Shown here piece by piece: positions 12,963-17,059 of a stretch of 43,237 nt of DNA (within the stretch, counting starts at the first letter, position 1; every line of letters starts with the position of its first letter). The notes beneath the pieces are model-generated. The model did no database searches. It was given only the letters and a program-made list of their open reading frames with translations, and was not told where the DNA came from. Origin of the DNA: Saprospiraceae bacterium (GTDB taxonomy: Bacteria > Bacteroidota > Bacteroidia > Chitinophagales > Saprospiraceae); contig JAQXAY010000111.1 of the NCBI GenBank assembly GCA_029252685.1, positions 1 through 43,237 of the forward strand, given 5' to 3'. The position numbers were made by a program, and so were the translations under genes.

Positions 12963-12983
12963 AAAATAAAGAAATATAGAAAA

Positions 12984-13011
12984 GTGGGAAAAATTTCCCA
13001 TTTTTTCCCAC
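12984..13011 (+). terminator. Alternative hairpins, weak terminator
   Basis: GTGGGAAAAA (12984-12993) can pair with either of two downstream arms: TTTCCCA (12994-13000, leaving a T6 tail) or TTTTTCCCAC (13002-13011). The first form looks like a weak intrinsic terminator, and the two are mutually exclusive. It sits just before the strong terminator at 13014. Confidence 0.5.
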
Positions 13012-13013
13012 AG

Positions 13014-13056
13014 ATGGGCGCTTTTAGGTTTAAATGACCTGAAGCGCCCATTTTTA
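13014..13056 (+). terminator. Strong intrinsic terminator before the dcw cluster
   Basis: Long stem (ATGGGCGCTTT-AGGT, 13014-13029, with ACCTGAAGCGCCCAT, 13037-13051, one bulged T), a 7-base loop and then T5. It insulates the dcw cluster from the upstream glycosyltransferase. Confidence 0.9.
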
Positions 13057-13108
13057 TTGGGTTTTTCAAATTATTTGCACCTTTTTAATGTCGGCTCAAT
13101 AGCCAAAT

Positions 13109-13131: not shown

Positions 13132-13175
13132 GTGGAAAAATGAAAGTTTTTGTGGTAAAAAGTGGTAAAAAGTGG
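13132..13175 (+). promoter_or_regulatory. MraZ-type operator: GTGG direct repeats on a 10-bp period
   Basis: GTGG occurs at 13132, 13152, 13162 and 13172, all in the same 10-bp phase; the last three are consecutive (GTGGTAAAAA, GTGGTAAAAA, GTGGCGAAA). MraZ proteins are known to bind tandem direct repeats upstream of their own gene: TGGG boxes spaced by about 5 bases in E. coli and AAAGTGG-type boxes in Mycoplasma. These repeats match the second form closely and lie just upstream of the promoter core at 13186, as expected for autorepression. Confidence 0.75.
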
Positions 13176-13185
13176 CGAAATAGTA

Positions 13186-13193
13186 TATTTTTG
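13186..13193 (+). promoter_or_regulatory. Candidate dcw promoter core (TATTTTTG)
   Basis: Exact TAnnTTTG match, 25 bases before the mraZ start and 10 bases after the last GTGG box. No TTG -33 element is visible at the normal distance, because that position is taken up by the repeats, so the promoter may be weak or controlled through them. Confidence 0.55.
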
Positions 13194-13218: not shown

Positions 13219-13677
13219 ATGAGACAACTGCTAGGAGAATATGAATGTAAGATAGATGCGAAGGGAAGAATGCGAATTCCTTCTGGTCTTCTCGGTCAAT
13301 TCGAGCGAAGTGGAGTTTCATTTGTAATTAATAGAGGGTTTGAAAATTGTTTGATGATATATCCTGAAAATGTTTGGGATAAGATTACCGAAGAAGTTAA
13401 TAGTCTGAATCAGTACGATAAGAGGAATAGGGATTTTGTTCGATATTTCTACCGAGGTGCTCAGAAACTTGACCTAGATGCGGCTGATAGAGTTTTAGTT
13501 TCAAAAAGACTCTTAGAATATGCAGAGGTAAAGAAAGATGTTATTTTAGCGGCCGTAAATGACCGGATTGAGCTATGGGCTAAAGATAAGTATGATTTTA
13601 TGCTTGACGAAGAGCCTATGGATTTCTCAGATCTAGCACAAACGGTATTAGGTAACAAACTTGAGGGAGGTAATTAA
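13219..13677 (+). CDS. mraZ: Transcriptional regulator MraZ
   Basis: DNA-binding regulator that usually opens the dcw cluster and represses it. The 152 residues hold two SpoVT/AbrB-like repeats: GEYECKIDAKGRMRIPSGLL (about 6-25) and the second one, AQKLDLDAADRVLVSKRLL (about 82-100). The protein forms a ring that reads tandem repeats, and such repeats are found directly upstream (13132-13175). The ATG at 13219 puts the first domain at the very N-terminus, as usual. The TAA overlaps the rsmH ATG by one base (TAATG), so the two are translationally coupled. Confidence 0.96.
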   Translation: MRQLLGEYECKIDAKGRMRIPSGLLGQFERSGVSFVINRGFENCLMIYPENVWDKITEEVNSLNQYDKRNRDFVRYFYRGAQKLDLDAADRVLVSKRLLEYAEVKKDVILAAVNDRIELWAKDKYDFMLDEEPMDFSDLAQTVLGNKLEGGN

Positions 13678-14594
13678 TGGAATATCATTTGCCAGTATTG
13701 GCTAGAAAATCGATAGAAGAAATGTCCATCAAAAGTGATGGCATATATGTAGACGCGACATTTGGAGGAGGAGGACACAGTAGGTTGATTCTTGAACAAC
13801 TAGGACCGAAAGGCAGGTTGTTTTGTTTCGATCAAGATCCAGACGCTAGAGAGAATCTCTGGGAAGATGATCGGTTGACTTTCTTTCCTGCTAATTTCAG
13901 ATATATCGAACGATTTCTGAAAATGGAAGGAATTAAGAAAGTTGATGGTATCCTTGCAGACCTTGGCGTTTCATCCCATCAGTTTGATACAGCGGAGAGA
14001 GGATTTTCTTTTCGCTTTGATGCAAACTTAGATATGCGGATGAGCCAGAATGGAGAGGTTACAGCGGCTACAGTTCTGAATAAATATTCAGAATCAGAAT
14101 TGCAAAAGATGTTCAGTTCATATGGAGAGGTCCGGAATTCTAAAACCCTTGCCCAAGCAATAGTGGCAGCAAGAAATTCAAGAGCTTTAGAAACCATACA
14201 GGATCTCTCTATAATTTTAGATTCAGTTGGACGTGGACCAAAAAATAGATATTACGCTCAGGTCTTTCAGGCGATAAGAATGGAGGTTAACGAGGAAGTG
14301 GCAGTTTTGGAAGATTTATTAAGCGCAAGTGTCAATGTTTTAAAAGAGGGAGGGAGGCTAGTAGCAATCTCATACCATAGTATTGAAGACCGTCTGGTTA
14401 AAAAGCTCATTAAAACGGGTAATGTAGATGGTGATGTAGAGAAAGATTTTTATGGGAACATTTATCGTCCCTTTAGACTAATAAGCAAGAAAGCAATCAT
14501 CCCAGATGATGCTGAAATAAAACAAAACCCCAGAGCAAGATCCGCAAAGATGCGCGTTGCAGAACGTACGTCCGATTTGGCTTTGGAGAAATAG
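13677..14594 (+). CDS. rsmH: 16S rRNA (cytosine-1402 N4)-methyltransferase
   Basis: Methylates the N4 position of C1402 in 16S rRNA, in the decoding centre. The 305 residues show YHLPVLARKSIEEM at the start, the SAM motif DATFGGGGHSRLIL (26-39), the ILADLGVSSHQFDTAERGFSFR core (key part DLGVSSHQ) and the late RLVAISYHSIEDRLVKK motif. C-terminal NPRARSAKMRVAER is also diagnostic. It starts inside the mraZ stop codon. Its constant place in the dcw cluster is a family feature, not evidence for a direct division role. Confidence 0.97.
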   Translation: MEYHLPVLARKSIEEMSIKSDGIYVDATFGGGGHSRLILEQLGPKGRLFCFDQDPDARENLWEDDRLTFFPANFRYIERFLKMEGIKKVDGILADLGVSSHQFDTAERGFSFRFDANLDMRMSQNGEVTAATVLNKYSESELQKMFSSYGEVRNSKTLAQAIVAARNSRALETIQDLSIILDSVGRGPKNRYYAQVFQAIRMEVNEEVAVLEDLLSASVNVLKEGGRLVAISYHSIEDRLVKKLIKTGNVDGDVEKDFYGNIYRPFRLISKKAIIPDDAEIKQNPRARSAKMRVAERTSDLALEK

Positions 14595-14935: not shown

Positions 14936-17059
14936 ATGGCAACCTTTAAAAATGAAGTACTGATCAGAGTTTATATCGTAGTGTTTGCGGTAGTGCTTGT
15001 AGCGGTTGCTATATTTGCAAAGGCTGTTCGTATTTCTGTGCTTGAAGGAAAAGATTGGAGAGCCAAGATTGAAAACCAGTATTTTCAGGTTCGTAAAGTA
15101 GAAGCGGGAAGAGGAAATATTCTTGCAGCTAATGGTGGCTTATTAGCAACATCTCTTCCATTCTTTGAGCTTGCCTTTGACCCGAGTTCATCGGGTATGT
15201 CAGAAGAAGACTTTGAATTAAATATAGATTCTCTAGCTTATTGTTTGTCGACATTTGTTGATAATTCATTTACGCCGGAGGGTATGCGCGAATATCTAGT
15301 CTCCATGAGAAAAGATAAAAAGCAGTATGTACCAATCAAAAAGCAAGCCAGTTATGAAGAGTATGAGATGATCAGTAATTTCCCGCTCTTTAGAATGGGA
15401 CAATTCAAAGGTGGTTTCATAGCTATTCCAAGATTCAAGCGTAATAATCCTTATGGGATGTTAGCTAGTAGGACACTTGGTTATAATCGGGAGAACTCCA
15501 GGTCAATAGGTTTGGAGGGCTATTTTGATGAAAATCTTACTGGTGAGCAAGGGGAACAATTAATGCGCAGACTGACTAGTAATATCTGGATCCCAGTAAA
15601 TAACTTTTCAAAGATTGACCCGGTAGGTGGTCAAGACCTTCTAACAACAATAGATATTGATATTCAGGATGTTGCTGAAGGTAGTTTACTGAAAGCTGTT
15701 CGTAATAACAATGCAGATTATGGTGTAGCTGTAGTCATGGATGTAAAGACTGGTGCAATTCGTGCAATGGCTAATCTAGGTCGAACTAAAAAAGGAAATA
15801 TTTGGGAAACATATAATCATGCGGTGGGTTCATCCACTGAGCCTGGTTCTACATTCAAATTGGCCTCAATAATGGCACTTTTGGAGGATGGGAAGATTGA
15901 TCTTAAAGATAGTGTAGACCTCGAGCAAGGAAGTACGAAGTTTTTTGATCAGCAGATGACGGATGCTTCTAGGCATGGAATTGATTCTACAAGTATAAGA
16001 CGTGCGTTTGAGATTTCTTCTAATGTTGGTATAGCAAAATTAGTACAGCAGCATTATGGAGACGAAAAGGAAGCAAAGGAATTTATTGAACGTTTGAAGC
16101 AGTTCAATCTAGATCATAGGACGGGTATAGAAATTAATGGAGAAGTTGATCCTTACATAAAGGAGGCCTATAGCTCAGAAGATGATTGGTCAGGAATTAG
16201 TTTGCCATGGATGGCACACGGTTATGAATTGCGCATGACTCCTTTACAAATTCTTTCATTTTACAATGCTGTAGCAAATGATGGGAAGCAGATGAAGCCT
16301 TATTTGGTTTCTGAACTTCAAGAGTATGGGGAAACCCTAAAGCGCATCCCGCCAACGGTTGTAAAAAAACAAATAGCTTCTTCAAAGACAATTCGGAAAG
16401 CACAAAGTCTTTTAAAAGGAGTTGTTGAACAAGGTACTGCAAAAAAACTGAAGTCAGAACAATATACATTTGCTGGAAAAACTGGTACAGCCCAAATTAA
16501 TTATAAGCGATCGAATGGAAAAATGACAGTAGGAGGATATCAATCTTCATTTGTAGGGTACTTCCCTGCAGATGAGCCTAGGTACTCTTGTATTGTAGTT
16601 ATCTACAAACCAAAAAACGGAAGATATTACGGTTCCGATGTGGCTTTACCGGTTTTTCGCAGCATAGCAGATAAGATTTACTCTTTGAAGCCAGACTTGT
16701 TTGGACAGTTCGAATCTTCAGGATATATAGCGGGTAAAGGACTACCGCAAGGTAGTGTTGGTGAAAAGTCTGATTTTGAGATTTTGATGAAAGAGTTGGA
16801 TATAGATTTTAGGAAGAATGAACAATCTGATTTCATCGTTTTGGATACAGATACCACTGAAGTTGTAGCTATGTTGAATCGCAGAGTTAAGCTTGAAAAA
16901 GTACCAAGTGTAGTAGGAATGGGATTAAGAGATGCAGTTTATGTACTTGAAAGCTTGGGTTTGAAAGTGGAAGTGAGTGGTTCAGGGAAAGTTGTAAATC
17001 AATCTATTAGACCTGGCACCATGTTGAGGGGGCAAGCGGTTTCCTTAAGATTGAATTAG
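14936..17059 (+). CDS. ftsI: Septal peptidoglycan transpeptidase FtsI (PBP3) with PASTA domain
   Basis: Class B penicillin-binding protein that cross-links septal peptidoglycan with FtsW as partner glycosyltransferase. The 707 residues have a membrane anchor (about 9-29), a dimerisation domain containing AGRGNILAANGG, and the transpeptidase domain with all three motifs: STFK with nucleophile Ser305, SSN (361-363) and KTG (515-517). The last 60 or so residues form a PASTA domain (VPSVVGMGLRDAVYVLESLG), which is common in Bacteroidota FtsI but absent from E. coli. It starts 23 bases after ftsL and ends 4 bases before murE. Confidence 0.96.
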   Translation: MATFKNEVLIRVYIVVFAVVLVAVAIFAKAVRISVLEGKDWRAKIENQYFQVRKVEAGRGNILAANGGLLATSLPFFELAFDPSSSGMSEEDFELNIDSLAYCLSTFVDNSFTPEGMREYLVSMRKDKKQYVPIKKQASYEEYEMISNFPLFRMGQFKGGFIAIPRFKRNNPYGMLASRTLGYNRENSRSIGLEGYFDENLTGEQGEQLMRRLTSNIWIPVNNFSKIDPVGGQDLLTTIDIDIQDVAEGSLLKAVRNNNADYGVAVVMDVKTGAIRAMANLGRTKKGNIWETYNHAVGSSTEPGSTFKLASIMALLEDGKIDLKDSVDLEQGSTKFFDQQMTDASRHGIDSTSIRRAFEISSNVGIAKLVQQHYGDEKEAKEFIERLKQFNLDHRTGIEINGEVDPYIKEAYSSEDDWSGISLPWMAHGYELRMTPLQILSFYNAVANDGKQMKPYLVSELQEYGETLKRIPPTVVKKQIASSKTIRKAQSLLKGVVEQGTAKKLKSEQYTFAGKTGTAQINYKRSNGKMTVGGYQSSFVGYFPADEPRYSCIVVIYKPKNGRYYGSDVALPVFRSIADKIYSLKPDLFGQFESSGYIAGKGLPQGSVGEKSDFEILMKELDIDFRKNEQSDFIVLDTDTTEVVAMLNRRVKLEKVPSVVGMGLRDAVYVLESLGLKVEVSGSGKVVNQSIRPGTMLRGQAVSLRLN

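Follow-up and report, generated by a model that had tools for sequence, protein, structure and literature searches.

A predicted MraZ operator and a distal opposite-strand box array, candidates for a repression loop upstream of mraZ in many Bacteroidota

The mraZ locus and its upstream boxes

The window analysed here is a stretch of 43,237 nucleotides from a Saprospiraceae bacterium. It contains the beginning of a dcw cluster, in which mraZ is the first gene and rsmH the next. The features on which the argument depends are, in order of position:

12984–12987, plus strand: GTGG facing the distal array, the fifth match of an earlier note on this DNA; kept in both congeners, and part of a 10-bp hairpin with 13002–13011.
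12998–13011, minus strand: distal two-box array GTGGGAAAAAATGG, with an inner spacing of 141 bp to 13152; a one-mismatch match, one of five such places in the genome, kept in both congeners.
About 13014–13051, plus strand: terminator-like GC-rich hairpin past the upstream gene; the RNA fold of 13005–13062 has -30.7 kcal/mol (z -6.9).
13132–13135, plus strand: outlying GTGG that may be a fourth MraZ box or else belong to an accessory element of the TGTGGAWAA type; the register is common to both congeners and offsets vary elsewhere.
13152–13175, plus strand: predicted proximal MraZ operator of three boxes; sole match to GTGKN6GTGGN6GTGK in the genome, conserved across the phylum.
13186–13193, plus strand: putative -7 promoter element TATTTTTG; TAnnTTTG 14–16 bp past the start of the last box recurs in relatives.
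13219–13677, plus strand: mraZ, by family the repressor of the division and cell-wall cluster; TIGR00242 above cut-off, and a model that resembles MraZ structures.
13677–14594, plus strand: rsmH (mraW); TIGR00006 above cut-off.
14936–17059, plus strand: FtsI/SpoVD-type penicillin-binding protein; 257 bits against TIGR02214, under the cut-off of 688, the name being taken from family and position.

The protein encoded by mraZ belongs to the MraZ family. It scored 114.4 bits against TIGR00242, for which the curated cut-off is 98.35, and contains two PF02381 (SpoVT-AbrB-like) half-domain matches, both above cut-off. Its AlphaFold2 model (mean pLDDT 89.5) retrieved by Foldseek the chains of 1n0e, 1n0f, 9qlg, 9r4j and 9sz7, with E-values of 5e-9 or better. 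By their titles, 9r4j and 9sz7 represent MraZ bound to promoter DNA, one of them on a four-box promoter. The closest named relatives are Sphingobacteriales bacterium AM_2324 (95% MraZ identity) and a Lewinella MAG (90%), followed by Phaeodactylibacter and Saprospiraceae MAGs, and the window is therefore of the Saprospiraceae type. In the phylum sample, all eight sampled genomes of one family (f96: G226, G252, G276, G290, G294, G301, G323 and G331) were without a TIGR00242 match, as if mraZ had been lost there. A comparison of the leader RNA of the window with Rfam gave six sub-threshold matches, none of which reached the gathering score.

The earlier note had reported GTGG at 13132, 13152, 13162 and 13172, and all four are found at these positions. 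The last three form a direct array in 10-bp steps, GTGGTAAAAAGTGGTAAAAAGTGG. They had been described as copies of the same unit, which is correct for the boxes at 13152 and 13162 (both GTGGTAAAAA) but not for the one at 13172, which reads GTGGCGAAAT. The pattern GTGK-N6-GTGG-N6-GTGK (GTGKNNNNNNGTGGNNNNNNGTGK) has its single match in the whole 3.44-Mb genome at this array. By itself, the 7-mer AAAGTGG is about as common in the window as chance predicts (7 matches against 6.73 expected); GTGGKAAAAAGTGG, with up to two mismatches allowed, occurs there 4 times against 0.59 expected, and three of these four matches are at the mraZ locus. The further GTGG at 13132, 20 bp before the first box, had been counted as a fourth box on the same register. 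The window does share this register with its two congeners, but comparable upstream GTGGs in wider relatives lie at variable offsets, and it is doubtful that this GTGG is a fourth MraZ box.

Conservation of the proximal array and its place in the promoter

Three sets of mraZ-upstream regions were compared. The first, ranging from genus to phylum, began with 192 regions, of which 190 were distinct and 183 remained after removal of near copies; 180 regions were long enough for the distal scans. The second held 65 regions, including 9 near copies of the first set that were kept in the count, and was drawn largely from families of the first set. The third, named set was reduced from 80 loci to 40 by length and redundancy filters and came mostly from the family of the window. 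A re-filtered pool of 271 regions from all sets, with distal sites chosen afresh, gave slightly different counts.

The earlier note expected an MraZ-type operator to recur in related genomes with 10-bp GTGG spacing, and our comparison bears this out. The 183 regions contain 219 GTGG pairs 10 bp apart, against a shuffled mean of 0.45, and 96 pairs at a spacing of 20. Two or more in-register GTGK boxes were found in 166 of the 183 regions (17 exceptions), against about one in shuffles, and a matrix trained on these arrays recovered a proximal site in 62/65 and 39/40 regions outside the training set. The box consensus is GTGG[G/T]AAAA, and the proximal array has three boxes in 54 of 86 cases. The six inter-box bases are A-rich in the consensus and the period is 10 bp, as would also be the case if the repeats were phased A-tracts, bending the DNA or acting as an UP element, instead of operator boxes. 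We regard this as very improbable, as GTGG is constant while the inter-box bases vary, being G-rich in several genomes, and the same boxes are present in the E. coli mraZ operator.

The array can be compared with two described systems. In E. coli, mraZ is preceded by MraZ boxes (Eraso et al. 2014, as cited in PMC8475190), and the MraZ site of Mollicutes consists of direct repeats AAAGTG[T/G] (Fisunov et al. 2016, as cited in the same paper). Like the Bacteroidota arrays, the operator of E. coli K-12 has three boxes, TGGG at -43, -33 and -23, exactly 10 bp apart and before mraZ; it scores 23.0 with the Bacteroidota-trained matrix. The Mollicutes site shares the direct repeats and the GTG[T/G] core. 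Set against that published site alone, the Bacteroidota boxes are mostly GTGG[G/T]AAAA, mostly three in number and located at -33, and many genomes have in addition an opposite-strand array upstream. The earlier note held that the window's repeat is close to the Mycoplasma form; that it is closer to this than to the form of E. coli finds no support in the consensus or in the high score of the E. coli operator with the same matrix, and the Mycoplasma form is therefore not distinctive. On the basis of the conserved 10-bp pairs, the matrix matches and the score of the E. coli operator, we infer that the proximal array is the Bacteroidota version of the already known MraZ operator. The repeats at 13152–13175, which are direct GTG[G/T] repeats with 10-bp spacing upstream of mraZ, are almost certainly such an operator, one that MraZ would bind and through which it would regulate its own gene.

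Promoters of the Bacteroidetes are defined by a consensus of -7 and -33 elements. In the window, TATTTTTG follows the start of the last box by 14 bp, with mraZ beginning at 13219, which confirms that the boxes stand directly before a putative promoter core and mraZ. Across the first set, TAnnTTTG was found 14–16 bp past the start of the last box in 37 of 166 arrays, and the looser TAnnTTW in 85. Because the -7-like motif, where seen, clusters at this distance, the array covers the -33 region, in agreement with the earlier proposal that the boxes take the place of the -33 element. In many members of the phylum sample (L092–L115 and L158–L195), inspection by eye placed the array on the downstream side of a promoter of the TTGACTTT or TTGACA type. 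The E. coli array (L397), also by eye, is likewise downstream of such promoter elements, in contrast to the -33 placement in the class of the window. With either placement, a bound array would block RNA polymerase.

A further conserved element accompanies the first box. Scanning 239 regions for AAAGTTWTC[A/C]ACA gave 95 matches within 30 bp of the first box, of which 72 start at -12 or -11 (for example in L134, L146 and L147), and the reverse form TGTGGAWAA also recurs. The element (TTTTCAACA, TTATCAACA, TTATCCACA or TGTGGAWAA) bears a suggestive resemblance to a DnaA box. As regards this resemblance, AAGTTWTCAACA was rare and unclustered in 14 genomes, close same-strand pairs numbered 0–2 per genome in 14 genomes, and the flanks of dnaA in 19 genomes had no clear box cluster.

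The distal array

When GTGGKAAAAAGTGG was searched with at most one mismatch, it was found at five places in the genome: two overlapping pairs of the proximal array, the minus-strand pair at 12998–13011, and two elsewhere. One of the latter (L199) is located inside a 549-aa ORF that is carboxyltransferase-like by eye, and the other is L200. In the genome G025, several contigs have many 10-bp tandem repeats of the GTGGTTTATG type, which are probably minisatellites unrelated to MraZ. The minus-strand pair is kept in both congeners, where the inner spacing is 142 and 144 bp, compared with 141 bp in the window.

The earlier note had recorded only a fifth match, AAAGTGGG at 12981, and had assigned it to the upstream terminator. 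This match lies outside the hairpin at 13014–13051, in a separate inverted-repeat element that also carries the minus-strand array, and the conserved array beside it had been overlooked. The inverted repeat, GTGGGAAAAA/TTTTTCCCAC, forms a 10-bp hairpin (z -4.1) past the stop codon of the upstream gene and overlaps the distal site, where a minus-strand terminator-like site is also predicted. The distal element of the window could accordingly be a transcription terminator or hairpin that resembles MraZ boxes only as a by-product. However, a stronger terminator-like hairpin, which falls inside the would-be loop, is located next to it. In the more distant congener (L005/L318), moreover, the long stem is broken by eye, and yet the minus-strand boxes persist as GTGGTAAAAAATGGG, with G replaced by T in keeping with the MraZ consensus. 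The array also recurs across families without the window's hairpin, again by eye. We consider it improbable that termination accounts for the distal element, and a second MraZ array is the reading pursued below.

With a distal array counted at a matrix score of at least 11, minus-strand arrays were found in 55/180, 27/65 and 7/40 regions of the first, second and third sets, respectively; about two thirds of the genomes have none. The controls gave 0.0 per set in shuffles and 2 matches in 225 real 300-bp windows further upstream. Other plus-strand sites, some of which are extensions of the proximal array, numbered 13/180, 0/65 and 8/40, against 0 in the same 225 upstream windows, and the first and second sets thus show a bias towards the minus strand. 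Two boxes make up the distal array in 80 of 86 cases. In the Saprospiraceae, the family of the window, some distal arrays occupy the plus strand or both strands (L007, L008, L011, L321, L325, L327 and L329); several of the plus-strand ones there precede the first box by about 117, 139 or 161 bp, in steps of some 22 bp. The E. coli operator differs in having no distal reverse array, its best reverse-strand score being -4.2.

A distal array mostly on the minus strand might be the operator of a divergent promoter. The proximal array alone would then regulate mraZ, and MraZ would also control the upstream neighbour. A divergent gene, alpha/beta-hydrolase-like by eye, does lie upstream in L070, L076 and L088, and in L050 a promoter-like TACATTTG can be seen by eye past the distal array. 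Nevertheless, among the 82 distal arrays of the first and second sets, the sequence motif TAnnTTT occurs 12–18 bp past the last box in only 3, a number equal to that of the slid control (2.8), as opposed to 43 of 82 proximal arrays. By this motif, the distal array across genomes is a candidate second operator that has no promoter to itself. It is present also where the upstream gene is co-directional, the window included. We therefore find control of a divergent gene unlikely, and an accessory site acting on the mraZ promoter remains our preferred reading.

Helical phase between the two arrays and a putative repression loop

The spacing of the two arrays was taken as the distance between the inner box of the distal array and the first box of the proximal one. 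Of 82 pooled distal arrays, 48 lie at 125 bp or less, and 44 of these fall on modes at 70–73 (9), 82–86 (14), 93–96 (15), 104–105 (3) and 117–119 (3) bp, the exceptions being 99, 99, 111 and 113. The mode means climb by 11.32 bp per step. This phasing was first seen in the first set and retested in the second, with best R values of 0.63 and 0.76 (p<1/3000 each). As the second set draws largely on families of the first, the data were collapsed to one value per family, with family labels assigned by hand; the 24 families gave R 0.69 at a period of 11.35 bp (p=0.0003 relative to uniform spacings), and 29 family-by-mode values gave R 0.59 (p=0.0007). The bootstrap interval of the period is 10.96–12.30 bp. 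The third set has two short spacings, 83 and 95, both on modes.

Differing choices of the box pair within a 10-bp array could mimic a 10-bp period. Repeating the measurement with the first box, the last box or the neighbouring element as the reference gave a best period of 11.1–11.6 bp. With the conserved element beside the first box as the anchor (28 genomes), R was 0.68 at 11.3. The agreement obtained with this independent anchor indicates that the phase is not an artefact of box choice. From the -7 motif (29 genomes) the phase was weak, being significant in the first set and in the pool but not in the second set alone; from the start codon, neither set was significant alone, and the pool gave p=0.04 at 11.25 only. 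Within families, spacings jump by about one turn: 72/83.5 in f23, 84/93 in f30 and 73/82 in f25. One alignment within f30 places a 10-bp difference in mid-spacer. Off-phase values also occur, one per family: f25 also has 99, and f39 has 111 beside 104.5. The phasing is confined to spacings of up to 125 bp; longer ones (n=41), the range of the window, have no 11-bp phase and a weak best fit at 9.6 bp (p=0.03).

The clustering of the short spacings at whole turns of about 11.3 bp makes a repression loop the most likely function of the distal array, and a separate operator for a divergent gene does not predict helical phase. A promoterless second site and a phase repeat above 10.5 bp would be expected if supercoiled DNA formed a short repression loop. 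For lac loops in vivo, PMC1762422 gives fitted helical repeats of 11.60 and 11.08 bp per turn. The lac repressor with its auxiliary operators is likewise a system in which two operators of one repressor stand at a phase-dependent spacing, with about 11.3 bp found here. It is, however, an unrelated protein, the Bacteroidota sites are arrays of tandem boxes on opposite strands, and the evidence for the latter is comparative only.

On this basis, a mechanism can be proposed. The MraZ ring would place one DNA-binding head on each GTGG box, the boxes being one helical turn apart. By occupying the -33 region immediately before the -7 element, the ring would deny RNA polymerase access to the dcw promoter. 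The second array upstream, in many Bacteroidota mostly of two boxes, generally on the other strand and lacking any recognisable promoter, would be gripped together with the first by one ring or by two interacting rings, and the resulting repression loop may tighten autoregulation. With its several heads, an MraZ ring could engage two arrays in this manner. Alternatively, MraZ may sit side by side on both arrays, or a helper such as HU may wrap them, so that the phase would reflect a compact complex and not a free loop. The strict phase of the short spacings and the conserved extra element 11–12 bp before the first box are in keeping with such a complex, but spacers of 70–119 bp are long for direct contact on unbent DNA. 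No observation made here tells the compact complex from looping; we hold the former to be rather unlikely.

Taken over many Bacteroidota, the combination of a proximal autoregulatory MraZ operator with a distal array engaged in a repression loop appears likely to us. That Bacteroidota MraZ represses the cluster through a phased loop, between a proximal direct array, mostly of three boxes, and an upstream array on the opposite strand, mostly of two, we would call somewhat more probable than its contrary. For the window itself, the chances that its 141-bp pair would form a loop are about even, and they are higher for the shorter pairs of other genomes. Among the matches listed from the open-licence literature, no title concerned MraZ looping or a Bacteroidota MraZ operator, and a phased opposite-strand distal array for MraZ is, as far as these searches show, undescribed there.

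MraZ is widespread in bacteria, yet there is no evident reason for a multi-subunit ring to recognise just a few short boxes. With a second array in helical phase in many families, the ring would have a task, that of bridging two sites, and MraZ would, if the proposal is true, be a bridging repressor. The variety of spacings from family to family would then serve as an evolutionary readout of the in vivo helical repeat (about 11.3 bp) in the phylum, and the control of the division cluster would become directly testable by half-turn and full-turn insertions in the spacer.
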